Shown: in pieces, positions 1 to 37,035 of the stretch
Numbering within the stretch: position 1 is the first letter of the stretch
Layout of the letters: every line of letters begins with the position of its first letter
NCBI GenBank assembly: GCA_964017185.1
Contig: OZ024873.1
Location: 42,952,760 to 43,016,759, forward strand
DNA length: 64,000 nt
Direction: 5' to 3'
Origin: Rugalucina vietnamica
Lineage: Eukaryota; Mollusca; Bivalvia; Lucinida; Lucinidae
Notes under the pieces: generated by a model
Told to the model about the DNA's origin: nothing
Seen by the model: only the letters and a program-made list of their open reading frames with translations
Database searches by the model: none
Made by a program: the position numbers and the translations under genes

Positions 1-3000
1 GCCATTAAAGGTTGCAACTGTAACGGTTAGTGCTTACATGTTGACACTAACGTTTGCAACTGTTTTAACGGTTGCAAATGCAAAGCTTAGTGTTTACGTG
101 TTGCCATTAACGGTTTTAACTACAACGCTTAGTTTTAACGTGTTGACACGGTTTTAACGGTTGCAAATGCAAAGCTTAGTATCATTAACGGTTTTAACTG
201 CAACGCTTAGTTTTAACATGTTGCCACGGTATTAACGGTTGCAAATCCAATGCTTAGTGCTAACGTGTTGCAATTAACGGTTATAACTACAACGCTTAGT
301 TTTAACGTGTTGACATGGTTTTAATGGTTGCAACTGCAAAGCTTAGTGTTTACGTGTTGTCATTAACGGTTTTAACTACAACGCTTAGTTTTAACGCATT
401 GTAACCGCAATGCTTAGTGTTAACGTGTTGTAATTAACGGTTGCAACTGCAACGCTTAGTGTAAACATGTTACCACTAATGGTTGCAACTGCAATGCTAA
501 GTGTTAACATGTTGACATAAACGGTTGCAACGTGTTAACGTGTTGAAATTAACGTAAGCAAATGCTACACTTACTGTAATGTTGAAACTAACGGTTGTAA
601 CTGCAACGCTTAGTTTTAACGTGTTGCCACTAACGCTTGCAACTGCAATGCTTAATGTTAACGTGTTGCCTTTAAAGGTTACAACTGCAACGGTTAGTGC
701 TTACATGTTAACACTAACGTTTGCAACTGCAACGCTTAGCTTTAACGTGTTGCCACTAACGCTTAATGTTAACGTGTTGCCATTAAAGGTTGCAACTGTA
801 ACGGTTAGTGCTTCCATGTTGACACTAACGTTTGCAACTGTTTTGACGGTTGCAAATGCAAAGCTTAGTGTTTACGTGTTGCCATTAACGGTTTTAACTA
901 CAACGCTTAGTTTCAACGTGTTGACACGGTTTTAACGGTTGCAAATGCAAAGCAGCTTACGTGTTGTCATTAACGGTTTTAACTGCAACGCTTAGTTTTT
1001 ACATGTTGCCACGGTATTAACGGTTGCAAATCCAATGCTTAGTGCCACTAACGCTTGCAACTGCAATGCTTAATGTTAACGTGTTGCCTTTAAAGGTTGC
1101 AACTGCAACGGTTAATGCTTACATGTTGACACTAACGTTTGCAACTGCAACGCCTAGCTTTAACGTGTTGCCACTAACGCTTAATGTTAACGTGTTGCCA
1201 TTAAAGGTTGCAACTGTAACGGTTAGTGCTTACATGTTGACACTAACGTTTGCAACTGTTTTAACGGTTGCAAATGCAAAGCTTAGTGTTTACGTGTTGC
1301 CATTAACGGTTTTAACTACAACGCTTAGTTTTAACGTGTTGACACGGTTTTAACGGTTGCAAATGCAAAGCTTAGTGTTTACGTGTTGGCATTAACTGTT
1401 TTAACTGCAACGCTTAGTTTTAACATGTTGCCACGGTATTAACGGTTGCAAATCCAATGCTTAGTGCTAACGTGTTGCAATTAACGGTTATAACTACAAC
1501 GCTTAGTTTTAACGTGTTGACATGGTTTTAATGGTTGCAACTGCAAAGCTTAGTGTTTACGTGTTGTCATTAACGGTTTTAACTACAACGCTTAGTTTTA
1601 ACGCATTGTAACCGCAATGCTTAGTGTTAACGTGTTGTAATTAACGGTTGCAACTGCAACGCTTAGTGTAAACATGTTGACACTAATGGTTGCAACTGCA
1701 ATGCTAAGTGTTAACATGTTGACATAAACGGTTGCAACGTGTTAACGTGTTGAAATTAACGTAAGCAAATGCTACACTTACTGTAATGTTGAAACTAACG
1801 GTTGTAACTGCAACGCTTAGTTTTAACGTGTTGCCACTAACGCTTGCAACTGCAATGCTTAATGTTAACGTGTTGCCTTTAAAGGTTGCAACTGCAACGG
1901 TTAGTGCTTACATGTTAACACTAACGTTTGCAACTGCAACACTTAGCTTTAACGTGTTGCCACGAACGCTTAATGTTAACGTGTTGCCATTAAAGGTTGC
2001 AACTGTAACGGTTAGTGCTTCCATGTTGACATTAACGTTTGCAACTGTTTTGACGGTTGCAAATGCATGTTGCCATTAACGGTTTTAACTACAACGCTTA
2101 GTTTCAACGTGTTGACACGGTTTTAACGATTGCAAATGCAAAGCAGCTTACGTGTTGTCATTAACGGTTTTAACTGCAACGCTTAGTTTTTACATGTTGC
2201 AACGTGTTGACACGGTTTTAATGGTTGCAAATGCAAAGCTTAGTGTTTACGTGTTGTCATTAACGGTTTTAACTGCAACGCTTAGTTTTAACATGTTGCC
2301 ACGGTATTAACGGTTGCAAATCCAATGCTTAGTGCTAACGTGTTGCAATTAACGGTTATAACTACAACGCTTAGTTTTAACGTGTTGACATGGTTTTAAT
2401 GGTTGCAAATGCAAAGCTTAGTGTTTACGTGTTGTCATTAACGGTTGCAACTGCAACGCTTAGTGTAAACATGTTGACACTAACGGTTGCAACAGTGTTG
2501 ACATAAACGGTTGCAACGTGTTAACGTGTTGAAATTAACGTAAGCAAATGCTACACTGTTATAATGTTATAACGGTTGTAACTGCAACGCTTAGATTGCT
2601 TAGTGTTAACGTGTTGCAACTGCAGCGCTTAGTGTAAACATGTTGACACTAACGGTTGCAACTGCAATGCTAAGTGTTAACATGTTGACATAAACGGTTG
2701 CAACGTTTTAACGTGTTGAAATTAACGTAAGCAAATGCTACACTTACTGTTATAATGTTGACACTTACGGTTGTAACTGCAACGCTTAGTTTTAACGTGT
2801 TGCCACTAACGCTTGCAACTGCAATGCTTAATGTTAACGTGTTGCCTTTAAAGGTTGTAACTGCAACGGTTAGTGCTTACATGTTGACACTAACGTTTGC
2901 AACTGCAACGCCTACCACTAACGCTTAATAATAACGTGTTGCATTTAAGGTTGCAACTGTAACGGTTAGTGCTTACATGTTGACAACTGTTTTAACGGTT

Positions 3001-3390
3001 GCAAATGCAAAGCTTATTGTTTACGTGTTGTCATTAACGGTTTTAACTGCAACGCTTAGTTTTAACGTGTTGCCACGGTATTAACGGTTGCAAATCCAAT
3101 GCTTAGTGCTAATGTGTTGCAATTAACGGTTATAACTACAACGCTTAGTTTTAACGTGTTGACATGGTTTTAATGGTTGCAAATGCAAAGCTTAGTGTTT
3201 ACGTGTTGTCATTAACGGTTTTAACTACAACGCTTAGTTTTAACGCATTGTAACCGCAATGCTTAGTGTTAACGTGTTGTAATTTACGGTTGCAACTGCA
3301 ACGCTTAGTGTAAACATGTTGACACTAATGGTTGCAACTGCAATGCTAAGTGTTAACATGTTGACATAAACGGTTGCAACGTGTTAACGT
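1..3390. repeat. Left, rearranged part of the satellite array
   Basis: Landmarks here are at 542, 1749, 2528, 2715 and the next at 3391, giving spacings of 1207, 779, 187 and 676 bp. This order does not match the regular series seen further right, so this part was rearranged relative to the superunits. It contains shortened blocks, such as the monomer broken near 2067 where 16 bp are missing compared with 3704-3727. It may belong to a further superunit that is cut by the window edge. Confidence 0.7.
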
Positions 3391-6300
3391 GTTGAAATTA
3401 ACGTAAGCAAATGCTACACTTACTGTAATGTTGAAACTAACGGTTGTAACTGCAACGCTTAGATTTAACGTGTTGCCACTAACGCTTGCAACTGCAATGC
3501 TTAATGTTAACGTGTTGCCTTTAAAGGTTGCAACTGCAACGGTTAGTGCTTACATGTTAACACTAACGTTTGCAACTGCAACACTTAGCTTTAACGTGTT
3601 GCCACTAACGCTTAATGTTAACGTGTTGCCATTAAAGGTTGCAACTGTAACGGTTAGTGCTTCCATGTTGACACTAACGTTTGCAACTGTTTTGACGGTT
3701 GCAAATGCAAAGCTTAGTGTTTACGTGTTGCCATTAACGGTTTTAACTACAACGCTTAGTTTCAACGTGTTGACACGGTTTTAACGGTTGCAAATGCAAA
3801 GCAGCTTACGTGTTGTCATTAACGGTTTTAACTGCAACGCTTAGTTTTTACATGTTGCCACGGTATTAACGGTTGCAAATCCAATGCTTAGTGCCACTAA
3901 CGCTTGCAACTGCAATGCTTAATGTTAACGTGTTGCCTTTAAAGGTTGCAACTGCAACGGTTAATGCTTACATGTTGACACTGACGTTTGCAACTGCAAC
4001 GCCTAGCTTTAACGTGTTGCCACTAACGCTTAATGTTAACGTGTTGCCATTAAAGGTTGCAACTGTAACGGTTAGTGCTTACATGTTGACACTAACGTTT
4101 GCAACTGTTTTAACGGTTGCAAATGCAAAGCTTAGTGTTTACGTGTTGCCATTAACGGTTTTAACTACAACGCTTAGTTTTAACGTGTTGACACGGTTTT
4201 AACTGTTGCAAATGCAAAGCTTAGTGTTTACGTGTTGGCATTAACGGTTTTAACTGCAACGCTTAGTTTTAACATGTTGCCACTAACGGTTGCAACTGCA
4301 ATGCTAAGTGTTGACATAAACGGTTGCAACGTGTTAACGTGTTGAAATTAACGTAAGCAAATGCTACACTGTTATAATGTTATAACGGTTGTAACTGCAA
4401 CGCTTAGTTTTAACGCATTGTAACCGAAATGCTTAGTGTTAACGTGTTGCAACTGCAACGCTTAGTGTAAACATGTTGACACTAACGGTTGCAACTGCAA
4501 TGCTAAGTGTTAACATGTTGACATAAACGGTTGCAACGTTTTAACGTGTTGAAATTAACGTAAGCAAATGCTACACTTACTGTTATAATGTTGACACTTA
4601 CGGTTGTAACTGCAACGCTTAGTTTTAACGTGTTGCCACTAACGCTTGCAACTGCAATGCTTAATGTTAACGTGTTGCCTTTAAAGGTTGTAACTGCAAC
4701 GGTTAGTGCTTACATGTTGACACTAACGTTTGCAACTGCAACGCTTAGCTTTAACGTGTTGCCACTAACGCTTAATGTTAACGTGTTGCATTTAAGGTTG
4801 AACTGTAACGGTTAGTGCTTACATGTTGACACTAACGTTTGCAACTGTTTTAACGGTTGCAAATGCAAAGCTTAGTGTTTACGTGTTGTCATTAACGGTT
4901 TTAACTGCAACGCTTAGTTTTAGCGTGTTGCCACGGTATTAACGGTTGCAAATCCAATGCTTAGTGCTAATGTGTTGCAATTAACTGTTATAACTACAAC
5001 GCTTAGTTTTAACGTGTTGACATGGTTTTAATGGTTGCAAATGCAAAGCTTAGTGTTTACGTGTTGTCATTAACGGTTTTAACTACAACGCTTAGTTTTA
5101 ACGCATTGTAACCGCAATGCTTAGTGTTAACGTGTTGTCATTAACGGTTGCAACTGCAACGCTTAGTGTAAACATGTTGACACTAACGGTTGCAACTGCA
5201 ATGCTAAGTGTTAACATGTTGGCATAAACGGTTGCAACGTGTTAACGTGTTGAAATTAACGTAAACGAATGTTACACTTACTGTAATGTTGACACTAACG
5301 GTTGTAACTGCAACGCTTAGTTTTAACGTGTTGCCACTAACGCTTGCAACTGCAATGCTTAATGTTAACGTGTTGCCTTTAAAGGTTGCAACTGCAACGG
5401 TTAATGCTTACATGTTGACACTAACGTTTGCAACTGCAACGCTTAGCTTTAACGTGTTGCCACTAACGCTTAATGTTAACGTGTTGCCATTAAAGGTTGC
5501 AACTGTAACGGTTAGTGCTTACATGTTGACACTAACGTTTGCAACTGTTTTAACGGTTGCAAATGCAAAGCTTAGTGTTTACGTGTTGCCATTAACGGTT
5601 TTAACTACAACGCTTATCTTTAACGTGTTGACACGGTTTTAACGGTTGCAAATGCAAAGCTTAGTGTTTACGTGTTGTCATTAACGGTTTTAACTGCAAC
5701 GCTTAGTTTTAACATGTTGCCACGGTATTAACGGTTGCAAATCCAATGCTTAGTGCTAACGTGTTGCAATTAACGGTTATAACTACAACGCTTAGTTTTA
5801 ACGTGTTGACATGGTTTTAATGGTTACAACTGCAAAGCTTAGTGTTTACGTGTTGTCATTAACGGTTTTAACTACAACGCTTAGTTTTAACGCATTGTAA
5901 CCGCAATGCTTAGTGTTAACGTGTTGTAATTAACGGTTGCAACTGCAACGCTTAGTGTAAACATGTTGACACTAATGGTTGCAACTGCAATGCTAAGTGT
6001 TAACATGTTGACATAAACGGTTGCAACGTGTTAACGTGTTGAAATTAACGTAAGCAAATGCTACACTTACTGTAATGTTGAAACTAATGGTTGTACCTGC
6101 AACGCTTAGTTTTAACGTGTTGCCACTAACGCTTGCAACTGCAATGCTTAATCTTAACGTGTTGCCTTTAAAGGTTGCAACTGCAACGGTTAGTGCTTAC
6201 ATGTTAACACTAACGTTTGCAACTGCAACACTTAGCTTTAACGTGTTGCCACTAACGCTTAATGTTAACGTGTTGCCATTAAAGGTTGCAACTGTAACGG

Positions 6301-9300
6301 TTAGTGCTTGCGTGTTGCCATTAACGGTTTTAACTACAACGCTTAGTTTCAACGTGTTGACACGGTTTTAACGGTTGCAAATGCAAAGCAGCTTACGTGT
6401 TGTCATTAACGGTTTTAACTGCAACGCTTAGTTTTTACATGTTGCCACGGTATTAACGGTTGCAAATCCAATGCTTAGTGCCACTAACGCTTGCTTAATG
6501 TTAACGTGTTGCCTTTAAAGGTTGCAACTGCAACGGTTAATGCTTACATGTTGACACTAACATTTGCAACTGCAACGCCTAGCTTTAACGTGTTGCCACT
6601 AACGCTTAATGTTAACGTGTTGCCATTAAAGGTTGCAACTGTAACGGTTAGTGCTTACATGTTGACACTAACGTTTGCAACTGTTTTAACGGTTGCAAAT
6701 GCAAAGCTTAGTGTTTACGTGTTGCCATTAACGGTTTTAACTACAACGCTTAGTTTTAACGTGTTGACACGGTTTTAACTGTTGCAAATGCAAAGCTTAG
6801 TGTTTACGTGTTGGCATTAACGGTTTTAACTGCAACGCTTAGTTTTAACATGTTGCCACGGTATTAACGGTTGCAAATCCAATGCTTAGTGCTAACGTGT
6901 TGCAATTAACGGTTATAACTACAACGCTTAGTTTTAACGTGTTGACATGGTTTTAATAGTTGCAAATGCAAAGCTTAGTGTTTACGTGTTGTCATTAACG
7001 GTTTTAACTGCAACGCTTAGTTTTAACGTGTTGCCACGGTATTAACGGTTGCAAATCCAATGCTTAGTGCTAATGTGTTGCAATTAACGGTTATAACTAC
7101 AACGCTTAGTTTTAACGTGTTGGCATGGTTTTAATGGTTGCAAATGCAAAGCTTAGTGTTTACGTGTTGTCATTAACGGTTTTAACTACAACGCTTTGTT
7201 TTAACGCATTGTAACCGCAATGCTTAGTGTCAACGTGTTGTCATTAACGGTTGCAACTGCAACGCTTAGTGTAAACATGTTGACACTAACGGTTGCAACT
7301 GCAATGCTAAGTGTTAACATGTTGACATTAAACGGTTGCAACGTGTTAACGTGTTGAAATTAACGTAAGCAAATGCTACACTTACTGTTATGTTGACACT
7401 AACGGTTGTAACTGCAACGCTTAGTTTTACTAACGCTTGCAACTGCAATGCTTAATGTTAACGTGTTGCCATTAAAGGTTACAACTGCAAGGGTTAGTGC
7501 TTACATGTTGACACTAACGTTTGCAACTGCAACGCTTAGCTTTAACGTGTTGCCACTAACGCTTAATGTTAACGTCTTCCCATTAAAGGTTGCAACTCTA
7601 ACGGTTAGTGCTTACATGTTGACACTAACGTTTGCAACTGTTTTAACGGTTGCAAATGCAAAGCTTAGTGTTTACGTATTGCCATTAACGGTTTTAACTA
7701 CAACGCTTAGTTTTAACGTGTTGACACGGTATTAACGGTTGCAAATCCAATGCTTAGTGCTAACGTGTTGCAATTAACGGTTATAACTACAACGCTTAGT
7801 TTTAACGTGTTGACATGGTTTTAATGGTTGCAAATGCAAAGCTTAGTGTTTACGTGTTGTCATTAACGGTTGCAACTGCAACGCTTAGTGTAAACATGTT
7901 GACACTAACGGTTGCAACTGCAATGCTAAGTGTTGACATAAACGGTTGCAACGTGTTAACGTGTTGAAATTAACGTAAGCAAATGCTACACTGTTATAAT
8001 GTTATAACGGTTGTAACTGCAACGCTTAGTTTTAACGCATTGTAACCGAAATGCTTAGTGTTAACGTGTTGCAACTGCAACGCTTAGTGTAAACATGTTG
8101 ACACTAACGGTTGCAACTGCAATGCTAAGTGTTAACATGTTGACATAAACGGTTGCAACGTTTTAACGTGTTGAAATTAACGTAAGCAAATGCTACACTT
8201 ACTGTTATAATGTTGACACTTACGGTTGTAACTGCAACGCTTAGTTTTAACGTGTTGTCACTAACGCTTGCAACTGCAATGCTTAATGTTAACGTGTTGC
8301 CTTTAAAGGTTGTAACTGCAACGGTTAGTGCTTACATGTTGACACTAACGTTTGCAACTGCAACGCTTAGCTTTAACGTGTTGCCACTAATGCTTAATGT
8401 TAACGTGTTGTATTTAAGGTTGCAACTGTAACGGTTAGTGCTTACATGTTGACACTAACGTTTGCAACTGTTTTAACGGTTGCAAATGCAAAGCTTAGTG
8501 TTTACGTGTTGTCATTAACGGTTTTAACTGCAACGCTTAGTTTTAACATGTTGCCACGGTATTAACGGTTGCAAATCCAATGCTTAGTGCTAATGTGTTG
8601 CAATTAACGGTTATAACTACAACGCTTAGTTTTACCGTGTTGACATGGTTTTAATGGTTGCAACTGCAAAGCTTAGTGTTTACGTGTTGTCATTAACGGT
8701 TTTAACTACAACGCTTAGTTTTAACGCATTGTAACCGCAATGCTTAGTGTTAACGTGTTGTAATTAACGGTTGCAACTGCAACGCTTAGTGTAAACATGT
8801 TGACACTAATGGTTGCAACTGCAATGCTAAGTGTTAACATGTTGACATAAACGGTTGCAACGTGTTAACGTGTTGAAATTAACGTAAGCAAATGCTACAC
8901 TTACTGTAATGTTGAAACTAACGGTTGTAACTGCAACGCTTAGTTTTAACGTGTTGCCACTAACGCTTGCAACTGCAATGCTTAATGTTAACGTGTTGCC
9001 TTTAAAGGTTGCAACTGCAACGGTTAGTGCTTACATGTTAACACTAACGTTTGCAACTGCAACACTTAGCTTTAACGTGTTGCCACTAACGCTTAATGTT
9101 AACGTGTTGCCATTAAAGGTTGCAACTGTAACGGTTAGTGCTTCCATGTTGACACTAACGTTTGCAACTGTTTTGACGGTTGCAAATGCAAAGCTTAGTG
9201 TTTACGTGTTGCCATTAACGGTTTTAACTACAACGCTTAGTTTCAACGTGTTGACACGGTTTTAACGATTGCAAATGCAAAGCAGCTTACGTGTTGTCAT

Positions 9301-11376
9301 TAACGGTTTTAACTGCAACGCTTAGTTTTTACATGTTGCAACGTGTTGACACGGTTTTAATGGTTGCAAATGCAAAGCTTAGTGTTTACGTGTTGTCATT
9401 AACGGTTTTAACTGCAACGCTTAGTTTTAACATGTTGCCACGGTATTAACGGTTGCAAATCCAATGCTTAGTGCTAACGTGTTGCAATTAACGGTTATAA
9501 CTACAACGCTTAGTTTTAACGTGTTGACATGGTTTTAATGGTTGCAAATGCAAAGCTTAGTGTTTACGTGTTGTCATTAACGGTTGCAACTGCAACGCTT
9601 AGTGTAAACATGTTGACACTAACGGTTGCAACTGCAATGCTAAGTGTTGACATAAACGGTTGCAACGTGTTAACGTGTTGAAATTAACGTAAGCAAATGC
9701 TACACTGTTATAATGTTATAACGGTTGTAACTGCAACGCTTAGTTTTAACGCATTGTAACCGAAATGCTTAGTGTTAACGTGTTGCAACTGCAACGCTTA
9801 GTGTAAACATGTTGACACTAACGGTTGCAACTGCAATGCTAAGTGTTAACATGTTGACATAAACGGTTGCAACGTTTTAACGTGTTGAAATTAACGTAAG
9901 CAAATGCTACACTTACTGTTATAATGTTGACACTTACGGTTGTAACTGCAACGCTTAGTTTTAACGTGTTGCCACTAACGCTTGCAACTGCAATGCTTAA
10001 TGTTAACGTGTTGCCTTTAAAGGTTGTAACTGCAACGGTTAGTGCTTACATGTTGACACTAACGTTTGCAACTGCAACGCCTAGCTTTAACGTGTTGCCA
10101 CTAACGCTTAATAATAACGTGTTGCATTTAAGGTTGCAACTGTAACGGTTAGTGCTTACATGTTGACACTAACGTTTGCAACTGTTTTAACGGTTGCAAA
10201 TGCAAAGCTTATTGTTTACGTGTTGTCATTAACGGTTTTAACTGCAACGCTTAGTTTTAACGTGTTGCCACGGTATTAACGGTTGCAAATCCAATGCTTA
10301 GTGCTAATGTGTTGCAATTAACGGTTATAAACTACAACGCTTAGTTTTAACGTGTTGACATGGTTTTAATGGTTGCAAATGCAAAGCTTAGTGTTTACGT
10401 GTTGTCATTAACGGTTTTAACTACAACGCTTAGTTTTAACGCATTGTAACCGCAATGCTTAGTGTTAACGTGTTGTCATTAACGGTTCCAACTGCAACGC
10501 TTAGTGTAAACATGTTGACACTAACGGTTGCAACTGCAATGCTAAGTGTTAACATGTTGACATTAAACGGTTGCAACGTGTTAACGTGTTGAAATTAACG
10601 TAAGCAAATGCTACACTTACTGTTATGTTGACACTAACGGTTGTAACTGCAACGCTTAGTTTTAACGTGTTGCCAATAACGCTTGCAACTGCAATGCTTA
10701 ATGTTAACGTGTTGCCTTTAAAGGTTACAGCTGCAAGGGTTAGTGCTTACATGTTGACACTAACGTTTGCAACTGCAACGCTTAGCTTTAACGTGTTGCC
10801 ACTAACGCTTAATGTTAACGTCTTCCCATTAAAGGTTGCAACTCTAACGGTTAGTGCTTACATGTTGACACTAACGTTTGCAACTGTTTTAACGGTTGCA
10901 AATGCAAAGCTTAGTGTTTACGTATTGCCATTAACGGTTTTAACTACAACGCTTAGTTTTAACGTGTTGACACGGTTTTAATGGTTGCAAATGCAAAGCT
11001 TAGTGTTTACGTGTTGTCATTAACGGTTTTAACTGCAACGCTTAGTTTTAACATGTTGCCACGGTATTAACGGTTGCAAATCCAATGCTTAGTGCTAACG
11101 TGTTGCAATTAACGGTTATAACTACAACGCTTAGTTTTAACGTGTTGACATGGTTTTAATGGTTGCAAATGCAAAGCTTAGTGTTTACGTGTTGTCATTA
11201 ACGGTTTTAACTACAACGCTTAGTTTTAACGCATTGTAACCGCAATGCTTAGTGTTAACGTGTTGTAATTAACCGTTGCAACTGCAACGCTTAGTGTAAA
11301 CATGTTGACACTAATGGTTGCAACTGCAATGCTAAGTGTTAACATGTTGACATAAACGGTTGCAACGTGTTAACGT
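3391..11376. repeat. Satellite superunit A (7,986 bp)
   Basis: Landmark spacings are 950, 207, 701, 789, 1314, 610, 207, 703, 805, 207, 704 and 789 bp. The first five and last five spacings are repeated nearly exactly in the next superunit. Private differences from superunit B include a 12-bp loss near 6492 and a full-length block near 6121, where superunit B has lost 12 bp. It keeps an 831-bp stretch (610+207+703 replacing 689) that superunit B lacks. Confidence 0.85.
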
Positions 11377-14300: not shown

Positions 14301-17300
14301 TGTTGCCATTAACGGTTTTAACTACAACGCTTAGTTTCAACGTGTTGACACGGTTTTAACGGTTGCAAATGCAAAGCAGCTTACGTGTTGTCATTAACGG
14401 TTTTAACTGCAACGCTTAGTTTTTACATGTTGCCACGGTATTAACGGTTGCAAATCCAATGCTTAGTGCCACTAACGCTTGCAACTGCAATGCTTAATGT
14501 TAACGTGTTGCCTTTAAAGGTTGCAACTGCAACGGTTAATGCTTACATGTTGACACTAACGTTTGCAACTGCAACGCCTAGCTTTAACGTGTTGCCACTA
14601 ACGCTTAATGTTAACGTGTTGCCATTAAAGGTTGCAACTGTAACGGTTAGTGCTTACATGTTGACACTAACGTTTGCAACTGTTTTAACGGTTGCAAATG
14701 CAAAGCTTAGTGTTTACGTGTTGCCATTAACGGTTTTAACTACAACGCTTAGTTTTAACGTGTTGACACGGTTTTAACTGTTGCAAATGCAAAGCTTAGT
14801 GTTTACGTGTTGGCATTAACGGTTTTAACTGCAACGCTTAGTTTTAACATGTTGCCACGGTATTAACGGTTGCAAATCCAATGCTTAGTGCTAACGTGTT
14901 GCAATTAACGGTTATAACTACAACGCTTAGTTTTAACGTGTTGACATGGTTTTAATAGTTGCAAATGCAAAGCTTAGTGTTTACGTCTTGTCATTAACGG
15001 TTTTAACTGCAACGCTTAGTTTTAACGTGTTGCCACGGTATTAACGGTTGCAAATCCAATGCTTAGTGCTAATGTGTTGCAATTAACGGTTATAACTACA
15101 ACGCTTAGTTTTAACGTGTTGGCATGGTTTCAATGGTTGCAAATGCAAAGCTTAGTGTTTACGTGTTGTCATTAACGGTTTTAACTACAACGCTTTGTTT
15201 TAACGCATTGTAACCGCAATGCTTAGTGTCAACGTGTTGTCATTAACGGTTGCAACTGCAACGCTTAGTGTAAACATGTTGACACTAACGGTTGCAACTG
15301 CAATGCTAAGTGTTAACATGTTGACATTAAACGGTTGCAACGTGTTAACGTGTTGAAATTAACGTAAGCAAATGCTACACTTACTGTTATGTTGACACTA
15401 ACGGTTGTAACTGCAACGCTTAGTTTTACTAACGCTTGCAACTGCAATGCTTAATGTTAACGTGTTGCCATTAAAGGTTACAACTGCAAGGGTTAGTGCT
15501 TACATGTTGACACTAACGTTTGCAACTGCAACGCTTAGCTTTAACGTGTTGCCACTAACGCTTAATGTTAACGTCTTCCCATTAAAGGTTGCAACTCTAA
15601 CGGTTAGTGCTTACATGTTGACACTAACGTTTGCAACTGTTTTAACGGTTGCAAATGCAAAGCTTAGTGTTTACGTATTGCCATTAACGGTTTTAACTAC
15701 AACGCTTAGTTTTAACGTGTTGACTCGGTATTAACGGTTGCAAATCCAATGCTTAGTGCTAACGTGTTGCAATTAACGGTTATAACTACAACGCTTAGTT
15801 TTAACGTGTTGACATGGTTTTAATGGTTGCAACTGCAAAGCTTAGTGTTTACGTGTTGTCATTAACGGTTTTAACTACAACGCTTAGTTTTAACGCATTG
15901 TAACCGCAATGCTTAGTGTTAACGTGTTGTAATTAACGGTTGCAACTGCAACGCTTAGTGTAAACATGTTGACACTAATGGTTGCAACTGCAATGCTAAG
16001 TGTTAACATGTTGACATAAACGGTTGCAACGTGTTAACGTGTTGAAATTAACGTAAGCAAATGCTACACTTACTGTAATGTTGAAACTAACGGTTGTAAC
16101 TGCAACGCTTAGTTTTAACGTGTTGCCACTAACGCTTGCAACTGCAATGCTTAATGTTAACGTGTTGCCTTTAAAGGTTGCAACTGCAACGGTTAGTGCT
16201 TACATGTTAACACTAACGTTTGCAACTGCAACACTTAGCTTTAACGTGTTGCCACTAACGCTTAATGTTAACGTGTTGCCATTAAAGGTTGCAACTGTAA
16301 CGGTTAGTGCTTCCATGTTGACACTAACGTTTGCAACTGTTTTGACGGTTGCAAATGCAAAGCTTAGTGTTTACGTGTTGCCATTAACGGTTTTAACTAC
16401 AACGCTTAGTTTCAACGTGTTGACACGGTTTTAACGATTGCAAATGCAAAGCAGCTTACGTGTTGTCATTAACGGTTTTAACTGCAACGCTTAGTTTTTA
16501 CATGTTGCAACGTGTTGACACGGTTTTAATGGTTGCAAATGCAAAGCTTAGTGTTTACGTGTTGTCATTAACGGTTTTAACTGCAACGCTTAGTTTTAAC
16601 ATGTTGCCACGGTATTAACGGTTGCAAATCCAATGCTTAGTGCTAACGTGTTGCAATTAACGGTTATAACTACAACGCTTAGTTTTAACGTGTTGACATG
16701 GTTTTAATGGTTGCAAATGCAAAGCTTAGTGTTTACGTGTTGTCATTAACGGTTGCAACTGCAACGCTTAGTGTAAACATGTTGACACTAACGGTTGCAA
16801 CTGCAATGCTAAGTGTTGACATAAACGGTTGCAACGTGTTAACGTGTTGAAATTAACGTAAGCAAATGCTACACTGTTATAATGTTATAACGGTTGTAAC
16901 TGCAACGCTTAGTTTTAACGCATTGTAACCGAAATGCTTAGTGTTAACGTGTTGCAACTGCAACGCTTAGTGTAAACATGTTGACACTAACGGTTGCAAC
17001 TGCAATGCTAAGTGTTAACATGTTGACATAAACGGTTGCAACGTTTTAACGTGTTGAAATTAACGTAAGCAAATGCTACACTTACTGTTATAATGTTGAC
17101 ACTTACGGTTGTAACTGCAACGCTTAGTTTTAACGTGTTGCCACTAACGCTTGCAACTGCAATGCTTAATGTTAACGTGTTGCCTTTAAAGGTTGTAACT
17201 GCAACGGTTAGTGCTTACATGTTGACACTAACGTTTGCAACTGCAACGCCTAGCTTTAACGTGTTGCCACTAACGCTTAATAATAACGTGTTGCATTTAA

Positions 17301-18545
17301 GGTTGCAACTGTAACGGTTAGTGCTTACATGTTGACACTAACGTTTGCAACTGTTTTAACGGTTGCAAATGCAAAGCTTATTGTTTACGTGTTGTCATTA
17401 ACGGTTTTAACTGCAACGCTTAGTTTTAACGTGTTGCCACGGTATTAACGGTTGCAAATCCAATGCTTAGTGCTAATGTGTTGCAATTAACGGTTATAAA
17501 CTACAACGCTTAGTTTTAACGTGTTGACATGGTTTTAATGGTTGCAAATGCAAAGCTTAGTGTTTACGTGTTGTCATTAACGGTTTTAACTACAACGCTT
17601 AGTTTTAACGCATTGTAACCGCAATGCTTAGTGTTAACGTGTTGTCATTAACGGTTCCAACTGCAACGCTTAGTGTAAACATGTTGACACTAACGGTTGC
17701 AACTGCAATGCTAAGTGTTAACATGTTGACATTAAACGGTTGCAACGTGTTAACGTGTTGAAATTAACGTAAGCAAATGCTACACTTACTGTTATGTTGA
17801 CACTAACGGTTGTAACTGCAACGCTTAGTTTTAACGTGTTGCCAATAACGCTTGCAACTGCAATGCTTAATGTTAACGTGTTGCCTTTAAAGGTTACAGC
17901 TGCAAGGGTTAGTGCTTACATGTTGACACTAACGTTTGCAACTGCAACGCTTAGCTTTAACGTGTTGCCACTAACGCTTAATGTTAACGTCTTCCCATTA
18001 AAGGTTGCAACTCTAACGGTTAGTGCTTACATGTTGACACTAACGTTTGCAACTGTTTTAACGGTTGCAAATGCAAAGCTTAGTGTTTACGTATTGCCAT
18101 TAACGGTTTTAACTACAACGCTTAGTTTTAACGTGTTGACACGGTTTTAATGGTTGCAAATGCAAAGCTTAGTGTTTACGTGTTGTCATTAACGGTTTTA
18201 ACTGCAACGCTTAGTTTTAACATGTTGCCACGGTATTAACGGTTGCAAATCCAATGCTTAGTGCTAACGTGTTGCAATTAACGGTTATAACTACAACGCT
18301 TAGTTTTAACGTGTTGACATGGTTTTAATGGTTGCAAATGCAAAGCTTAGTGTTTACGTGTTGTCATTAACGGTTTTAACTACAACGCTTAGTTTTAACG
18401 CATTGTAACCGCAATGCTTAGTGTTAACGTGTTGTAATTAACCGTTGCAACTGCAACGCTTAGTGTAAACATGTTGACACTAATGGTTGCAACTGCAATG
18501 CTAAGTGTTAACATGTTGACATAAACGGTTGCAACGTGTTAACGT
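11377..18545. repeat. Satellite superunit B (7,169 bp)
   Basis: Landmark spacings are 964, 207, 701, 789, 1314, 689, 805, 207, 704 and 789 bp. It carries private marks shared with the following copy: a local duplication at about 12228-12250, a 12-bp deletion near 14124 and a TGACTCGG variant at 15720. Positions from about 8.9 to 15.8 kb recur at a constant +7,169 offset from about 16.0 to 22.9 kb, without a net indel at any compared marker. That makes this the most recent large duplication in the array. Confidence 0.85.
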
Positions 18546-21500
18546 GTTGAAATTAACGTAAGCAAATGCTACACTTACTGTAATGTTGAAACTAACGGTT
18601 GTAACTGCAACGCTTAGTTTTAACGTGTTGCCACTAACGCTTGCAACTGCAATGCTTAATGTTAACGTGTTGCCTTTAAAGGTTGCAACTGCAACGGTTA
18701 GTGCTTACATGTTGACACTAACGTTTGCAACTGCAACACTTAGCTTTAACGTGTTGCCACTAACGCTTAATGTTAACGTGTTGCCATTAAAGGTTGCAAC
18801 TGTAACGGTTAGTGCTTCCATGTTGACACTAACGTTTGCAACTGTTTTGACGGTTGCAAATGCAAAGCTTAGTGTTTACGTGTTGCCATTAACGGTTTTA
18901 ACTACAACGCTTAGTTTCAACGTGTTGACACGGTTTTAACGGTTGCAAATGCAAAGCAGCTTACGTGTTGTCATTAACGGTTTTAACTGCAACGCTTAGT
19001 TTTTACATGTTGCCACGGTATTAACGGTTGCAAATCCAATGCTTAGTGCCACTAACGCTTGCAACTGCAATGCTTAATGTTAACGTGTTGCCTTTAAAGG
19101 TTGCAACTGCAACGGTTAATGCTTACATGTTGACACTAACGTTTGCAACTGCAACGCCTAGCTTTAACGTGTTGCCACTAACGCTTAATGTTAACGTGTT
19201 GCCATTAAAGGTTGCAACTGTAAAAGTTAGTGCTTACATGTTGACACTAACGTTTGCAACTGTTTTAACGGTTGCAAATGCAAAGCTTAGTGTTTACGTG
19301 TTGCCATTAACGGTTTTAACTACAACGCTTAGTTTTAACGTGTTGACACGGTTTTAACTGTTGCAAATGCAAAGCTTAGTGTTTACGTGTTGGCATTAAC
19401 GTGTTTACGTGTTGGCATTTAACTGCAACGCTTAGTTTTAACATGTTGCCACTAACGGTTGCAACTGCAATGCTAAGTGTTGACATAAACGGTTGCAACG
19501 TGTTAACGTGTTGAAATTAACGTAAGCAAATGCTACACTGTTATAATGTTATAACGGTTGTAACTGCAACGCTTAGTTTTAACGCATTGTAACCGAAATG
19601 CTTAGTGTTAACGTGTTGCAACTGCAACGCTTAGTGTAAACATGTTGACACTAACGGTTGCAACTGCAATGCTAAGTGTTAACATGTTGACATAAACGGT
19701 TGCAACGTTTTAACGTGTTGAAATTAACGTAAGCAAATGCTACACTTACTGTTATAATGTTGACACTTACGGTTGTAACTGCAACGCTTAGTTTTAACGT
19801 GTTGCCACTAACGCTTGCAACTGCAATGCTTAATGTTAACGTGTTGCCTTTAAAGGTTGTAACTGCAACGGTTAGTGCTTACATGTTGACACTAACGTTT
19901 GCAACTGCAACGCTTAGCTTTAACGTGTTGCCACTAACGCTTAATGTTAACGTGTTGCATTTAAGGTTGAATTGTAACGGTTAGTGCTTACATGTTGACA
20001 CTAACGTTTGCAACTGTTTTAACGGTTGCAAATGCAAAGCTTAGTGTTTACGTGTTGTCATTAACGGTTTTAACTGCAACGCTTAGTTTTAACGTGTTGC
20101 CACGGTATTAACGGTTGCAAATCCAATGCTTAGTGCTAATGTGTTGCAATTAACTGTTATAACTACAACGCTTAGTTTTAACGTGTTGACATGGTTTTAA
20201 TGGTTGCAAATGCAAAGCTTAGTGTTTACGTGTTGTCATTAACGGTTTTAACTACAACGCTTAGTTTTAACGCATTGTAACCGCAATGCTTAGTGTTAAC
20301 GTGTTGTCATTAACGGTTGCAACTGCAACGCTTAGTGTAAACATGTTGACACTAACGGTTGCAACTGCAATGCTAAGTGTTAACATGTTGACATAAACGG
20401 TTGCAACGTGTTAACGTGTTGAAATTAACGTAAACGAATGTTACACTTACTGTAATGTTGACACTAACGGTTGTAACTGCAACGCTTAGTTTTAACGTGT
20501 TGCCACTAACGCTTGCAACTGCAATGCTTAATGTTAACGTGTTGCCTTTAAAGGTTGCAACTGCAACGGTTAATGCTTACATGTTGACACTAACGTTTGC
20601 AACTGCAACGCTTAGCTTTAACGTGTTGCCACTAACGCTTAATGTTAACGTGTTGCCATTAAAGGTTGCAACTGTAACGGTTAGTGCTTACATGTTGACA
20701 CTAACGTTCGCAACTGTTTTAACGGTTGCAAATGCAAAGCTTAGTGTTTACGTGTTGCCATTAACGGTTTTAACTACAACGCTTAGTTTTAACGTGTTGA
20801 CACGGTTTTAACGGTTGCAAATGCAAAGCTTAGTGTTTACGTGTTGTCATTAACGGTTTTAACTGCAACGCTTAGTTTTAACATGTTGCCACGGTATTAA
20901 CGGTTGCAAATCCAATGCTTAGTGCTAACGTGTTGCAATTAACGGTTATAACTACAACGCTTAGTTTTAACGTGTTGACATGGTTTTAATGGTTACAACT
21001 GCAAAGCTTAGTGTTTACGTGTTGTCATTAACGGTTTTAACTACAACGCTTAGTTTTAACGCATTGTAACCGCAATGCTTAGTGTTAACGTGTTGTAATT
21101 AACGGTTGCAACTGCAACGCTTAGTGTAAACATGTTGACACTAATGGTTGCAACTGCAATGCTAAGTGTTAACATGTTGACATAAACGGTTGCAACGTGT
21201 TAACGTGTTGAAATTAACGTAAGCAAATGCTACACTTACTGTAATGTTGAAACTAATGGTTGTACCTGCAACGCTTAGTTTTAACGTGTTGCTAACTGCA
21301 ATGCTTAATCTTAACGTGTTGCCTTTAAAGGTTGCAACTGCAACGGTTAGTGCTTACATGTTAACACTAACGTTTGCAACTGCAACACTTAGCTTTAACG
21401 TGTTGCCACTAACGCTTAATGTTAACGTGTTGCCATTAAAGGTTGCAACTGTAACGGTTAGTGCTTGCGTGTTGCCATTAACGGTTTTAACTACAACGCT

Positions 21501-24500
21501 TAGTTTCAACGTGTTGACACGGTTTTAACGGTTGCAAATGCAAAGCAGCTTACGTGTTGTCATTAACGGTTTTAACTGCAACGCTTAGTTTTTACATGTT
21601 GCCACGGTATTAAGGGTTGCAAATCCAATGCTTAGTGCCACTAACGCTTGCAACTGCAATGCTTAATGTTAACGTGTTGCCTTTAAAGGTTGCAACTGCA
21701 ACGGTTAATGCTTACATGTTGACACTAACGTTTGCAACTGCAACGCCTAGCTTTAACGTGTTGCCACTAACGCTTAATGTTAACGTGTTGCCATTAAAGG
21801 TTGCAACTGTAACGGTTAGTGCTTACATGTTGACACTAACGTTTGCAACTGTTTTAACGGTTGCAAATGCAAAGCTTAGTGTTTACGTGTTGCCATTAAC
21901 GGTTTTAACTACAACGCTTAGTTTTAACGTGTTGACACGGTTTTAACTGTTGCAAATGCAAAGCTTAGTGTTTACGTGTTGGCATTAACGGTTTTAACTG
22001 CAACGCTTAGTTTTAACATGTTGCCACGGTATTAACGGTTGCAAATCCAATGCTTAGTGCTAACGTGTTGCAATTAACGGTTATAACTACAACGCTTAGT
22101 TTTAACGTGTTGACATGGTTTTAATAGTTGCAAATGCAAAGCTTAGTGTTTACGTCTTGTCATTAACGGTTTTAACTGCAACGCTTAGTTTTAACGTGTT
22201 GCCACGGTATTAACGGTTGCAAATCCAATGCTTAGTGCTAATGTGTTGCAATTAACGGTTATAACTACAACGCTTAGTTTTAACGTGTTGGCATGGTTTC
22301 AATGGTTGCAAATGCAAAGCTTAGTGTTTACGTGTTGTCATTAACGGTTTTAACTACAACGCTTTGTTTTAACGCATTGTAACCGCAATGCTTAGTGTCA
22401 ACGTGTTGTCATTAACGGTTGCAACTGCAACGCTTAGTGTAAACATGTTGACACTAACGGTTGCAACTGCAATGCTAAGTGTTAACATGTTGACATTAAA
22501 CGGTTGCAACGTGTTAACGTGTTGAAATTAACGTAAGCAAATGCTACACTTACTGTTATGTTGACACTAACGGTTGTAACTGCAACGCTTAGTTTTACTA
22601 ACGCTTGCAACTGCAATGCTTAATGTTAACGTGTTGCCATTAAAGGTTACAACTGCAAGGGTTAGTGCTTACATGTTGACACTAACGTTTGCAACTGCAA
22701 CGCTTAGCTTTAACGTGTTGCCACTAACGCTTAATGTTAACGTCTTCCCATTAAAGGTTGCAACTCTAACGGTTAGTGCTTACATGTTGACACTAACGTT
22801 TGCAACTGTTTTAACGGTTGCAAATGCAAAGCTTAGTGTTTACGTATTGCCATTAACGGTTTTAACTACAACGCTTAGTTTTAACGTGTTGACTCGGTAT
22901 TAACGGTTGCAAATCCAATGCTTAGTGCTAACGTGTTGCAATTAACGGTTATAACTACAACGCTTAGTTTTAACGTGTTGACATGGTTTTAATGGTTGCA
23001 AATGCAAAGCTTAGTGTTTACGTGTTGTCATTAACGGTTGCAACTGCAACGCTTAGTGTAAACATGTTGACACTAACGGTTGCAACTGCAATGCTAAGTG
23101 TTGACATAAACGGTTGCAACGTGTTAACGTGTTGAAATTAACGTAAGCAAATGCTACACTGTTATAATGTTATAACGGTTGTAACTGCAACGCTTAGTTT
23201 TAACGCATTGTAACCGAAATGCTTAGTGTTAACGTGTTGCAACTGCAACGCTTAGTGTAAACATGTTGACACTAACGGTTGCAACTGCAATGCTAAGTGT
23301 TAACATGTTGACATAAACGGTTGCAACGTTTTAACGTGTTGAAATTAACGTAAGCAAATGCTACACTTACTGTTATAATGTTGACACTTACGGTTGTAAC
23401 TGCAACGCTTAGTTTTAACGTGTTGTCACTAACGCTTGCAACTGCAATGCTTAATGTTAACGTGTTGCCTTTAAAGGTTGTAACTGCAACGGTTAGTGCT
23501 TACATGTTGACACTAACGTTTGCAACTGCAACGCTTAGCTTTAACGTGTTGCCACTAATGCTTAATGTTAACGTGTTGTATTTAAGGTTGCAACTGTAAC
23601 GGTTAGTGCTTACATGTTGACACTAACGTTTGCAACTGTTTTAACGGTTGCAAATGCAAAACTTAGTGTTTACGTGTTGTCATTAACGGTTTTAACTGCA
23701 ACGCTTAGTTTTAACGTGTTGCCACGGTATTAACGGTTGCAAATCCAATGCTTAGTGCTAATGTGTTGCAATTAACGGTTATAACTACAACGCTTAGTTT
23801 TAACGTGTTGACATGGTTTTAATGGTTGCAAATGCAAAGCTTAGTGTTTACGTGTTGTCATTAACGGTTTTAACTACAACGCTTAGTTTTAACGCATTGT
23901 AACCGCAATGCTTAGTGTTAACGTGTTGTCATTAACGGTTGCAACTGCAACGCTTAGTGTAAACATGTTGACACTAACGGTTGCAACTGCAATGCTAAGT
24001 GTTAACATGTTGACATAAACGGTTGCAACGTGTTAACGTGTTGAAATTAACGTAAACGAATGCTAAACTTACTGTAATGTTGACACTAACGGTTGTAACT
24101 GCAACGCTTAGTTTTAACGTGTTGCCACTAACGCTTGCAACTGCAATGCTTAATGTTAACGTGTTGCCTTTAAAGGTTGTAACTGCAACGGTTAGTGCTT
24201 ACATGTTGACACTAACGTTTGCAACTGCAACGCTTAGCTTTAACGTGTTGCCACTAACGCTTAATGTTAACGTGTTGCATTTAAGGTTGCAACTGTAACG
24301 GTTAGTGCTTACATGTTGACACTAACGTTTGCAACTGTTTTAACGGTTGCAAATGCAAAGCTTAGTGTTTACGTGTTGTCATTAACGGTTTTAACTGCAA
24401 CGCTTAGTTTTAACATGTTGCCACGGTATTAACGGTTGCAAATCCAATGCTTAGTGCTAATGTGTTGCAATTAACGGTTATAACTACAACGCTTATTTTT

Positions 24501-27500
24501 AACGTGTTGACATGGTTTTAATGGTTGCAAATGCAAAGCTTAGTGTTTACGTGTTGTCATTAACGGTTTTAACTACAACGCTTAGTTTTAACGCATTGTA
24601 ACCGCAATGCTTAGTGTTAACGTGTTGTCATTAACGGTTGCAACTGCAACGCTTAGTGTAAACATGTTGACACTAACGGTTGCAACTGCAATGCTAAGTG
24701 TTAACATGTTGACATAAACGGTTGCAACGTGTTAACGTGTTGAAATTAACGTAAACGAATGCTACACTTACTGTAATGTTGACACTAACGGTTGTAACTG
24801 CAACGCTTAGTTTTAACGTGTTGCCACTAACGCTTGCAACTGCAATGCTTAATGTTAACGTGTTGCCTTTAAAGGTTGCAACTGCAACGGTTAATGCTTA
24901 CATGTTGACACTAACGTTTGCAACTGCAACGCTTAGCTTTAACGTGTTGCCACTAACGCTTAATGTTAACGTGTTGCCATTAAAGGTTGCAACTGTAACG
25001 GTTAGTGCTTACATGTTGACACTAACGTTTGCAACTGTTTTAACGGTTGCAAATGCAAAGCTTAGTGTTTACGTGTTGCCATTAACGGTTTTAACTACAA
25101 CGCTTAGTTTTAACGTGTTGACACGGTTTTAACGATTGCAAATGCAAAGCTTAGTGTTTACGTGTTGTCATTAACGGTTTTAACTGCAACGCTTAGTTTT
25201 AACATGTTGCAACGGTATTAACGGTTGCAAATCCAATGCTTAGTGCTAACGTGTTGCAATTAACGGTTATAACTACAACGCTTAGTTTTAACGTGTTGAC
25301 ATGGTTTTAATGGTTGCAACTGCAAAGCTTAGTGTTTACGTGTTGTCATTAACGGTTTTAACTACAACGCTTAGTTTTAACGCATTGTAACCGCAATGCT
25401 TAGTGTTAACGTGTTGTAATTAACGGTTGCAACTGCAACGCTTAGTGTAAACATGTTGACACTAATGGTTGCAACTGCAATGCTAAGTGTTAACATGTTG
25501 ACATAAACGGTTGCAACGTGTTAACGTGTTGAAATTAACGTAAGCAAATGCTACACTTACTGTAATGTTGAAACTAACGGTTGTAACTGCAACGCTTAGT
25601 TTTAACGTGTTGCCACTAACGCTTGCAACTGCAATGCTTAATGTTAACGTGTTGCCTTTAAAGGTTGCAACTGCAACGGTTAGTGCTTACATGTTAACAC
25701 TAACGTTTGCAACTGCAACACTTAGCTTTAACGTGTTGCCACTAACGCTTAATGTTAACGTGTTGCCATTAAAGGTTGCAACTGTAACGGTTAGTGCTTC
25801 CATGTTGACACTAACGTTTGCAACTGTTTTGACGGTTGCAAATGCAAAGCTTAGTGTTTACGTGTTGCCATTAACGGTTTTAACTACAACGCTTAGTTTC
25901 AACGTGTTGACACGGTTTTAACGATTGCAAATGCAAAGCAGCTTACGTGTTGTCATTAACGGTTTTAACTGCAACGCTTAGTTTTTACATGTTGCAACGT
26001 GTTGACACGGTTTTAATGGTTGCAAATGCAAAGCTTAGTGTTTACGTGTTGTCATTAACGGTTTTAACTGCAACGCTTAGTTTTAACATGTTGCCACGGT
26101 ATTAACGGTTGCAAATCCAATGCTTAGTGCTAACGTGTTGCAATTAACGGTTATAACTACAACGCTTAGTTTTAACGTGTTGACATGGTTTTAATGGTTG
26201 CAAATGCAAAGCTTAGTGTTTACGTGTTGTCATTAACGGTTGCAACTGCAACGCTTAGTGTAAACATGTTGACACTAACGGTTGCAACTGCAATGCTAAG
26301 TGTTGACATAAACGGTTGCAACGTGTTAACGTGTTGAAATTAACGTAAGCAAATGCTACACTGTTATAATGTTATAACGGTTGTAACTGCAACGCTTAGT
26401 TTTAACGCATTGTAACCGAAATGCTTAGTGTTAACGTTTTGCAACTGCAACGCTTAGTGTAAACATGTTGACACTAACGGTTGCAACTGCAATGCTAAGT
26501 GTTAACATGTTGACATAAACGGTTGCAACGTTTTAACGTGTTGAAATTAACGTAAGCAAATGCTACACTTACTGTTATAATGTTGACACTTACGGTTGTA
26601 ACTGCAACGCTTAGTTTTAACGTGTTGCCACTAACGCTTGCAACTGCAATGCTTAATGTTAACGTGTTGCCTTTAAAGGTTGTAACTGCAACGGTTAGTG
26701 CTTACATGTTGACACTAACGTTTGCAACTGCAACGCTTAGCTTTAACGTGTTGCCACTAACGCTTAATGTTAACGTGTTGCATTTAAGGTTGCAACTGTA
26801 ACGGTTAGTGCTTACATGTTGACACTAACGTTTGCAACTGTTTTAACGGTTGCAAATGCAAAGCTTAGTGTTTACGTGTTGTCATTAACGGTTTTAACTG
26901 CAACGCTTAGTTTTAACGTGTTGCCACGGTATTAACGGTTTCAAATCCAATGCTTAGTGCTAATGTGTTGCAATTAACTGTCATAACTACAACGCTTAGT
27001 TTTAACGTGTTGACATGGTTTTAATGGTTGCAAATGCAAAGCTTAGTGTTTACGTGTTGTCATTAACGGTTTTAACTACAACGCTTAGTTTTAACGCATT
27101 GTAACCGCAATGCTTAGTGTTAACGTGTTGTCATTAACGGTTGCAACTGCAACGCTTAGTGTAAACATGTTGACACTAACGGTTGCAACTGCAATGCTAA
27201 GTGTTAACATGTTGACATAAACGGTTGCAACGTGTTAACGTGTTGAAATTAACGTAAACGAATGCTACACTTACTGTAATGTTGACACTAACGGTTGTAA
27301 CTGCAACGCTTAGTTTTAACGTGTTGCCACTAACGCTTGCAACTGCAATGCTTAATGTTAACGTGTTGCCTTTAAAGGTTGCAACTGCAACGGTTAATGC
27401 TTACATGTTGACACTAACGTTTGCAACTGCAACGCTTAGCTTTAACGTGTTGCCACTAACGCTTAATGTTAACGTGTTGCCATTAAAGGTTGCAACTGTA

Positions 27501-27728
27501 ACGGTTAGTGCTTACATGTTGACACTAACGTTTGCAACTGTTTTAACGGTTGCAAATGCAAAGCTTAGTGTTTACGTGTTGCCATTAACGGTTTTAACTA
27601 CAACGCTTAGTTTTAACGTGTTGACACGGTTTTAACGGTTGCAAATGCAAAGCTTAGTGTTTACGGGTTGTCATTAACGGTTTTAACTGCAACGCTTAGT
27701 TTTAACATGTTGCCACGGTATTAACGGT
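18546..27728. repeat. Satellite superunit C and array end
   Basis: Spacings start as in superunit B (964, 207, 701, 789, 1314). They then switch at about 22.9-23.0 kb to the superunit A pattern (610, 207, 702) and continue 699, 789, 805, 207, 702 to the end. The TGACTCGG variant of superunit B is still present at 22890, and the following block matches superunit A (8210-8431 recurs at 23378-23599). The copy is therefore a recombinant of the A and B types. The last monomers before 27728 are no more divergent than those in the middle. Confidence 0.8.
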
Positions 27729-29142: not shown

Positions 29143-29236
29143 AAGTTCAAGCAGCGCAAAAATTGACTCCAAAACATAAAACAAATAGACTACTACAAAA
29201 GTATCGCCTTAGAATGTTCAGTAATATAAAACTACC
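29143..29236 (+). repeat. Dispersed repeat, copy 1 (second copy at 52296-52399)
   Basis: This stretch and 52296-52399 share a common series: AGCGCAAAAATTGA, then CATAAAACAA, then AAGTATCGC, then CAGTAATATAAAA. They are in the same orientation with scattered substitutions. Here it ends in a run of G at 29238-29251. No coding content is seen. The full element and its family are unknown to me. Confidence 0.6.
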
Positions 29237-29269
29237 GGGGGGGGGGGGGGGAGCTTAAACCGGTTTTAC

Positions 29270-29692: not shown

Positions 29693-29888
29693 GGGAGTTA
29701 GAGGAAAAATGCAAACTGAAGGATTTGAAAAATAAAGCATTAAATGGATGTACGGGGAGACTTTTAGGGCCGCCACTCGGCATAACCACAAGAACTCTGA
29801 TATTTAAAGGTACTTCCGTGCTCGGAAGTCAAGCAGTCCTGACAATAAGAATCATTTCAAAGTTCAGAGCACCAGAAAGCCATCAGAG

Positions 29889-30250: not shown

Positions 30251-30252
30251 GC

Positions 30253-33918: not shown

Positions 33919-33965
33919 GTTAGCCTGGGCCCAGTCATCAATATAATTATTTTTCCAAATACAAT

Positions 33966-36886: not shown

Positions 36887-37035
36887 CATAAAAACGCACA
36901 GGTCTGTATACATAATTTACGGGAACACATAATAAATAATGAGTAAGCACATTGAGTATGTTAGTAATAATTTGTGAAATTTTATGCCCTTATGAGATGC
37001 TAGATTCATTCAACAACTTTAGATACATTTTGTAT
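36885..37035. repeat. Dispersed block, uninterrupted copy
   Basis: This is the second copy of the block at 33595-33918, in the same orientation and lacking the roughly 185-bp interior. Shared segments include AATTTACGGGAACA and GATGCTAGATTCATTCAACA. It is useful because it shows the state without the insertion. Confidence 0.65.

Follow-up and report, generated by a model that had tools for sequence, protein, structure and literature searches.

In primate alpha satellite, diverged monomers of about 171 bp lie in near-identical blocks, variants are biased towards particular chromosomes, simple diverged arrays stand beside the higher-order core, and there is one locus per chromosome. In molluscs, monomers built of subrepeats are known from several species, including Donax trunculus, Pecten maximus and Adamussium colbecki; they have been discussed as higher-order repeat (HOR) units and attributed to unequal crossing-over or slippage (PMC5874043). 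Here we describe a 42-bp satellite of the lucinid bivalve Rugalucina vietnamica, found in a stretch of 64,000 nucleotides of chromosome C5 (C5:42952760-43016759, hereafter the window) and followed through the genome. It is a higher-order organized satellite, in which a fixed superunit is a local feature, and the array is probably a segment of centromeric, or immediately pericentromeric, DNA made by unequal exchange, inverted duplication and copying between chromosomes.

The main logic is that of alpha satellite, to which a preliminary description of the window had likened it: diverged monomers in near-identical blocks, variants that favour particular chromosomes, simple diverged arrays within the clusters or next to them and, for the listed places on 16 of 17 chromosomes, one locus per chromosome. 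The likeness does not extend to the third level proposed there, which is not a repeat unit, and unlike alpha satellite the array has a monomer of 42 bp, no core of the CENP-B box, no fixed HOR period (in 98 kb of C5) and, on most chromosomes, blocks that switch strand. The arrangement of inverted repeats about a centre also recalls the centromeres of fission yeast, although here there are satellite arms of about 52-54 kb, with flanks that we read as a giant mobile element, in an animal. Among molluscan satellites, Ac4p1 of Adamussium colbecki (about 726 bp, its subrepeats varying in number) is similar in forming larger units from shorter related repeats, but the molluscan HOR units, compared here by description only, are single monomers of a few hundred bp and of low abundance, and the parts of the report available to us describe neither multi-kilobase HORs nor a one-locus map for them (PMC5874043). 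In Crassostrea gigas, CenH3 goes with a mixed set of repeats that has no uniform distribution; the Cg170 satellite of this oyster resembles ours in being a bivalve satellite with centromeric signals on several chromosomes, but it is also scattered through the chromosome arms and makes up the core of Helitrons (PMC7348941), whereas the places listed here fall in one interval per chromosome, plus one small array. Oyster satellites are often Helitron-related and some are pericentromeric, OedSat03/08 of Ostrea edulis being (peri)centromeric by fluorescence in situ hybridization (PMC11136912), and Cf303 of the scallop Chlamys farreri has been mapped on chromosomes (PMC5904364); we compare these by description only, and no higher-order organization is seen for them in the available parts of the two reports. 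CarSat51, also from an oyster, likewise has a 42-bp monomer, the comparison here being one of length. Novelty among bivalves, which the preliminary description had suspected, is thus narrower than proposed, since monomers made of subrepeats and discussed as HOR units are known in molluscs (PMC5874043, in part); we found no report of multi-kilobase higher-order arrays with one locus per chromosome in bivalves or other molluscs in the open-access literature, which is limited evidence; a search there for satellites of Tridacna likewise gave none.

The array and its main parts within the window are as follows.

1..27728, forward strand: 42-bp satellite array with higher-order blocks, running off the left end of the window
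542..27256, forward strand: 40 landmark copies, carried by two monomer types (42 and 38 bp) that are diverged but related
8412..15888, forward strand: first copy of a 7169-bp tandem duplication, core about 8636-15832
15581..23057, forward strand: second copy, 99.79% identical overall

The satellite fills the window from its first base, and not from position 542 as initially described, and ends at 27728. Upstream it continues for about 78 kb to C5:42874875, the leftmost 54 kb on the opposite strand; it was read base by base from C5:42882760, and to the left of this point only 42874875-42875999 was read, 6760 bases (42876000-42882759) being unread. Wrap-around alignment resolved the contiguous 97.7 kb into 2450 monomers, 1073 of them of exactly 42 bp. 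When monomers of 20 bases or fewer or of 60 or more were excluded, the 2446 that were kept formed 96 clusters at 90% identity, 24 of which cover 90% of the monomers. Adjacent monomers are on average only 0.57 identical (random pairs, 0.61), and yet the nearest neighbour of a core monomer is 0.994 identical (150 sampled) and the longest block self-matches among those listed reach 97.6-99.96%; 87% of positions lie in recurring strings of eight monomers and 41% in strings of 32. One property of HOR arrays, diverged monomers within near-identical copies of a larger unit, was therefore found, and the other, one fixed-length unit in many tandem copies, was not found in the 98 kb of C5; the other chromosomes were covered by samples of 2-20 kb.

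The superunit of 7-8 kb in the original hierarchy corresponds to a real but local event. The two copies of the 7169-bp duplication differ by 16 mismatches, 14 at the two ends and 2 in the core (11915 and 14445), and partial self-similarity at offsets 7986-8000 and 15155-15169 includes an older relation of approximately 8 kb. At twice the unit length (offset 14338) identity reaches 74.8% in the best of the 500-bp windows. Over 98 kb of C5, the offsets of the 25 longest direct duplications listed run from 2.3 to 26.8 kb (besides 7169, 2297, 6637, 7637, 8798, 9456, 11753, 11877, 20688 and up to 26791) with no common period seen, so that the array looks like a mosaic of overlapping segmental duplications. 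What stands of the hierarchy is diverged monomers in near-identical blocks, without a standing third level, and with a 14-bp level that is doubtful (see below).

The blocks had been delimited by a 15-bp landmark, GTTGAAATTAACGTA, which occurs in 40 exact forward-strand copies (first bases 542 to 27242), with none on the reverse strand and none in window 27729-64000; the two monomer types that carry it are clusters 12 and 14 of our clustering. The quoted spacings (964, 207, 701, 789, 1314, 610 or 689, 805, 207, 704, 789) are all present, but their order is not fixed: the first 3.8 kb has blocks of 1207, 779, 187, 676 and 950, and different orders, with some lengths in common, are found both in 24 kb upstream of the window and in the 46 kb that were read of the minus half of the array. 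Block order nevertheless recurs more than it does in 1000 order shuffles, with 20 repeated triples of block lengths in the plus-strand array of C5 (shuffled mean 1.46, maximum 7), four in the part of the minus half that was read (mean 0.13, maximum 3) and four in a C1 stretch of 67 blocks (mean 0.24, maximum 3). Blocks of 207, 789 and 710 were found on five, four and five sampled chromosomes, respectively, in varying orders. The landmark was also considered as a specially conserved protein-binding box, an idea left unsupported because, in 230 contexts selected by exact match, positions from about -24 to +29 show similar conservation. Single matches to the 15-mer in viral contigs (112) are attributable to chance, each locus sharing at most 13 12-mers with the array against 1749-3004 for eight loci of the genome; a 27-mer of the satellite had no match in viral contigs and a 20-mer none in prokaryote genomes.

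The genome-wide distribution is centromere-like. The assembly comprises 1.09 Gb, 1088.2 of its 1089.9 Mb in 17 large contigs, taken here as chromosomes C1 to C17. The exact landmark occurs 5071 times (1997 forward, 3074 reverse), against 2 + 2 for the reversed pattern, and extrapolation from its density on C5 (137 in 97.7 kb) gives about 3.6 Mb of satellite. Since the listing of exact landmarks holds 100 places, the map was built from rare point variants of the landmark, found at 23, 7, 51, 117 (100 listed) and 46 places. All 227 listed places are on 16 of the 17 chromosomes, in a single interval on each:

C1 60.2-60.7; C2 48.5-49.2; C3 60.0-60.2; C4 24.4-24.8 Mb
C5 42.8; C6 34.6-34.95; C7 23.6-23.95; C8 44.4-44.9 Mb
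C9 37.3-37.7; C11 25.3-25.4; C12 2.3-2.5; C13 17.0-17.3 Mb
C14 38.5; C15 46.4-46.6; C16 22.4-22.9; C17 15.6-15.9 Mb

On the 15 chromosomes with at least three of these places the interval spans 24-727 kb; C5 has one place. A further variant, in another monomer, has all 79 of its places in or beside the same intervals (extending C3 to 60.40 and C5 to 43.06 Mb), which brings the total to 306 of 306 listed places (323 found), and exact landmarks of C1 among the matches listed run from 59.94 to 60.68 Mb, a span of about 0.74 Mb. On 14 chromosomes the interval lies at 0.30-0.72 of chromosome length; on C12 (0.044) and C15 (0.993) it is close to an end, and these two would be near-telocentric.

Monomer types are widespread and point variants are local. 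When six common monomer cores were sought in samples from 16 chromosomes, four were present in every sampled chromosome, one in 15 and one in 14, whereas one base within the 79-place variant is G at all 32 places of C7 and all 9 of C14, C at 13 of the 14 of C2 and A at 7 of the 8 of C6. Samples, which differ in size, share on average 0.57 of their 24-mers within a chromosome (12 comparisons) and 0.39 between chromosomes (98 comparisons), and by eye those of C1, C4, C5, C11, C13, C15 and C17 form a set in which sharing is higher than it is with those of C2, C6, C7 and C9. The most direct evidence of copying between chromosomes is a junction of the array with its flank, common to C5, C11 and C13 at 97-99.7% identity, whose parts in the window are listed here.

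27729..27739, no strand assigned: AT-rich linker of 11 bp, identical at the left junction of C5 and on C13 and 3 bases longer on C11
27740..27871, forward strand: end of a dispersed repeat, 132 bp, often in facing plus/minus pairs elsewhere
27740..64000, forward strand: non-array flank, read as the inside of a putative giant element, of which the window holds the first 36 kb
27902..29025, no strand assigned: about 1.1 kb of extra sequence in the junction copy of the window only, absent from the copies read at the left of C5, on C13 and on C11

At window position 27729, which is C5:42980488, the satellite breaks inside a monomer and is followed by the 11-bp linker and then the 132-bp repeat. 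The same junction is found inverted at C5:42874874, and also on C13 and C11, with the satellite broken at the same position of the monomer; among the matches listed, clusters hold two copies on C5, three on C11 and one on C13, four of which were read. The two inverted junctions of C5 enclose 105.6 kb of satellite (6.8 kb of it unread), minus-strand upstream and plus-strand after C5:42928881, and this switch of strand, with no N at it, lies 1.2 kb from the midpoint between them. The mirror extends into the flanks: a sample at C5:42860000-42860999 equals window 45771-44772 reversed at 99.8% identity, and together with a stretch beside the left junction (C5:42872875-42874863) the mirrored sequences are 99.7-100% identical, differing over 2996 aligned bases by 6 mismatches and 2 gap positions, the 1.1-kb insertion excluded. 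From junction to mirrored sample there are 13864 bases on the left and 17032 on the right, which, after the 1.1-kb insertion, leaves about 2 kb of length difference unexplained. A sample at C5:42840000, whose expected partner lies by position just past the window, gave only short weaker matches (78-93%). The two arms of the C5 array, as far as read, cannot be aligned as one palindrome: none of their inverted matches exceeds 2.6 kb, and the longest are centred at scattered points. A real mirror image would imply that the blocks were reordered while the flanks diverged by about 0.2%. Satellite on both strands is seen on 14 of 16 chromosomes (12 by the variant map, C5, and C11, the last counted from one plus-strand junction read against minus-strand landmarks); C9 and C14 show one strand only in this count.

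The 132-bp repeat is dispersed genome-wide, C10 included (40 of 568 candidates scored). By our own reading, 18 of its 34 listed off-cluster places make up nine facing pairs, five of them 44.6-47.3 kb apart and the others 12-62 kb, and 16 have no listed partner. We read this repeat as the terminal inverted repeat of a putative giant transposon of about 45 kb (range 12-62 kb), and the segment at 27902..29025, at both edges of which a few bases are repeated, as a probable later insertion. The first 36 kb of the putative element, within the window, has no stop-to-stop frame above 137 codons.

Simple arrays of the 42-bp monomer may represent the older state of the satellite. The best matches to the monomer type that we take as founder, ATGTTGACACTAACGGTTGCAACTGCAACGCTTAGTGTTAAC (289 in the genome; best listed, 40 of 258 candidates scored), are short arrays in or beside the clusters of C2, C3, C4, C5, C7, C8, C12, C13, C14, C16 and C17. 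By eye, those of C2, C4, C7 (23.955 Mb), C12, C13, C14, C16 and C17 lie beyond the core interval or on its margin, those of C5 (42.58-42.60 Mb) and C8 and further matches on C7 are inside it, and C3 is mixed; the edge location rests on the listed places and one analyzed array. In that array, on C2, 57 monomers are 79% alike in pairwise comparison and their nearest neighbours are 0.90 identical, against 0.994 in the C5 core; the consensus of this array, when recomputed, was unchanged. The array has 5.8 kb in common, at 97.5%, with a simple array of C16. When dispersal of the kind seen in Cg170, with its Helitron, was considered, landmark arrays were not dispersed, and the simple arrays of C2, C5, C16 and C17 resembled copies of one segment within the clusters or next to them, C2 and C16 by direct comparison and C5 and C17 as suggested by matching search rows. 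Array segments on C12 and C14 each contain a strand switch and are 86-96% identical over several pieces, with similar-scoring rows at C4:24.846 and C5:43.090 Mb. The only off-cluster site among the matches listed is a simple array on C2 at 12.476 Mb (about 3630-4736 of C2:12473000-12482999).

The founder monomer equals its own rotated reverse complement at 34 of 42 positions (null 20.9 ± 2.2; none of 2000 shuffles as good), and the C5 core consensus still does so at 30 of 42 (P 0.002). The founder can fold into a hairpin of -10.4 kcal/mol (z -3.8, equalled by 1 of 200 shuffles). Four core stretches fold far less or not at all (z -1.5, -2.3, -1.3 and 0.1; four flank stretches, -0.4, 1.5, -1.1 and -0.7), so that the hairpin was rejected as general to the core and is taken as a trait of the founder monomer that has weakened there. 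The 14-bp subunits proposed as the lowest level of the hierarchy are not proven, the gapped thirds of one consensus being similar at P ~0.04 (400 shuffles) and cyclic self-similarity at 13-15 being unexceptional (P ~0.10, 3000 shuffles).

A sequence of events consistent with these observations would start from a nearly palindromic 42-bp monomer that first formed simple arrays, which would persist in and beside the clusters. In the cores the monomer would then have diverged into some two dozen common types, and these would have been amplified jointly, in multi-kilobase blocks, by unequal exchange, which would account for the higher-order structure. Block duplication would also have produced inverted copies, and blocks would have been copied from the cluster of one chromosome into that of another; common types would therefore be widespread while block order and point variants are local. 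Both unequal exchange as the process and the order from simple to complex are what we infer from the present state of the arrays.

One mostly internal interval per chromosome, as on 16 of the 17, is the pattern of centromeres, from which knobs and subtelomeric blocks usually differ, and it is on this basis that we infer a kinetochore-carrying role for the satellite. Several observations weigh against such a role. None of the 306 listed variant places is on C10; a small simple array is found outside the clusters, at C2:12.47 Mb; no exact core of the CENP-B box is present on either strand of the array in the window; and 24-mer sharing is uneven, the two samples of C7 (0.36-0.38) and the two of C4 (0.44-0.45) falling below some pairs from different chromosomes (up to 0.63). 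Moreover, other DNA breaks up the arrays within a cluster (of 20 one-kb samples taken on C5 from 42.50 to 42.88 Mb, 10 have no more than 3% of their bases in array words), so that the kinetochore could sit on something nearby. The satellite would then be heterochromatin adjoining the centromere, or a knob, and the centromere another sequence, a situation for which the mixed repeats under CenH3 in Crassostrea gigas, rather than one satellite, offer a parallel (PMC7348941, in part). Such an arrangement is unlikely given a single and mostly internal interval on 16 of 17 chromosomes among the listed places. A gene with coding tandem repeats, or an internal repeat of a dispersed mobile element, is highly improbable: 42 bp is 14 codons, the plain monomer is open in one frame, open reading frames (ORFs) of 109-118 amino acids recur and satellites inside Helitrons are common in oysters (PMC7348941 and PMC11136912, in part), but monomer lengths of 47, 30, 29, 40, 38 and others break the frame, the longest stop-to-stop frame in the 27.7-kb array has 125 codons on the plus strand and 68 on the minus, one such ORF has no Pfam match, and the landmark type is not dispersed.

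The structures of C5 raise a separate question, as the 7169-bp duplication and the mirror image might be products of assembly, for example haplotypes joined head to head or a false duplication. The differences are so few (two sites in the duplication core, and 6 mismatches with 2 gap positions in 2996 bases of mirrored flank) that an allelic or false duplication is conceivable, but we consider it quite unlikely, as the strand switch lies in N-free sequence, the halves of the array do not form one palindrome, the 1.1-kb insertion of the window copy is absent from the other C5 copy, the distances from junction to mirrored sample differ by a further 2 kb or so, and both strands are seen on most chromosomes. 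Taking these structures as real, one could go beyond a centromeric satellite shaped by exchange and copying and propose, as a rather doubtful extension, that the clusters are strand-switched satellite arms between inverted copies of the giant transposon, that the whole junction has been copied across chromosomes, that the order of blocks turns over much more quickly than point mutations build up (as would follow from sampled flanks differing by about 0.2% beside arms that are unalignable as a whole), and that the kinetochore is focused at the switch.

The centromeric satellite proposed here would provide a concrete candidate for centromere DNA with chromosome coordinates in bivalves, where Crassostrea gigas, for which CenH3 data exist, has no uniform centromere sequence. 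In addition, the junction, with copies on three chromosomes and a mirror image on one of them, could serve as a natural clock, against which the turnover of blocks can be measured relative to point divergence.

Other observations concern the flank and the assembly. A repeat is present in three copies in the flank (window 34826-36222, 43929-45445 and 62417-63951), 87-90% alike in the listed pairs and in part coding-like, with ORFs containing GHMTKMA-MPIYGKNP, two of which have no Pfam match; in all, Pfam gave no match for five flank ORFs and one array ORF. A degenerate tandem repeat of the type GTAGACCTAGGTAG / GTAGACCTTGGTAA was seen by eye at about 31840-32790 of the window. A contig of 30680 bases (C47), of which the first 300 were read, is AT-rich and is perhaps the mitochondrial genome.

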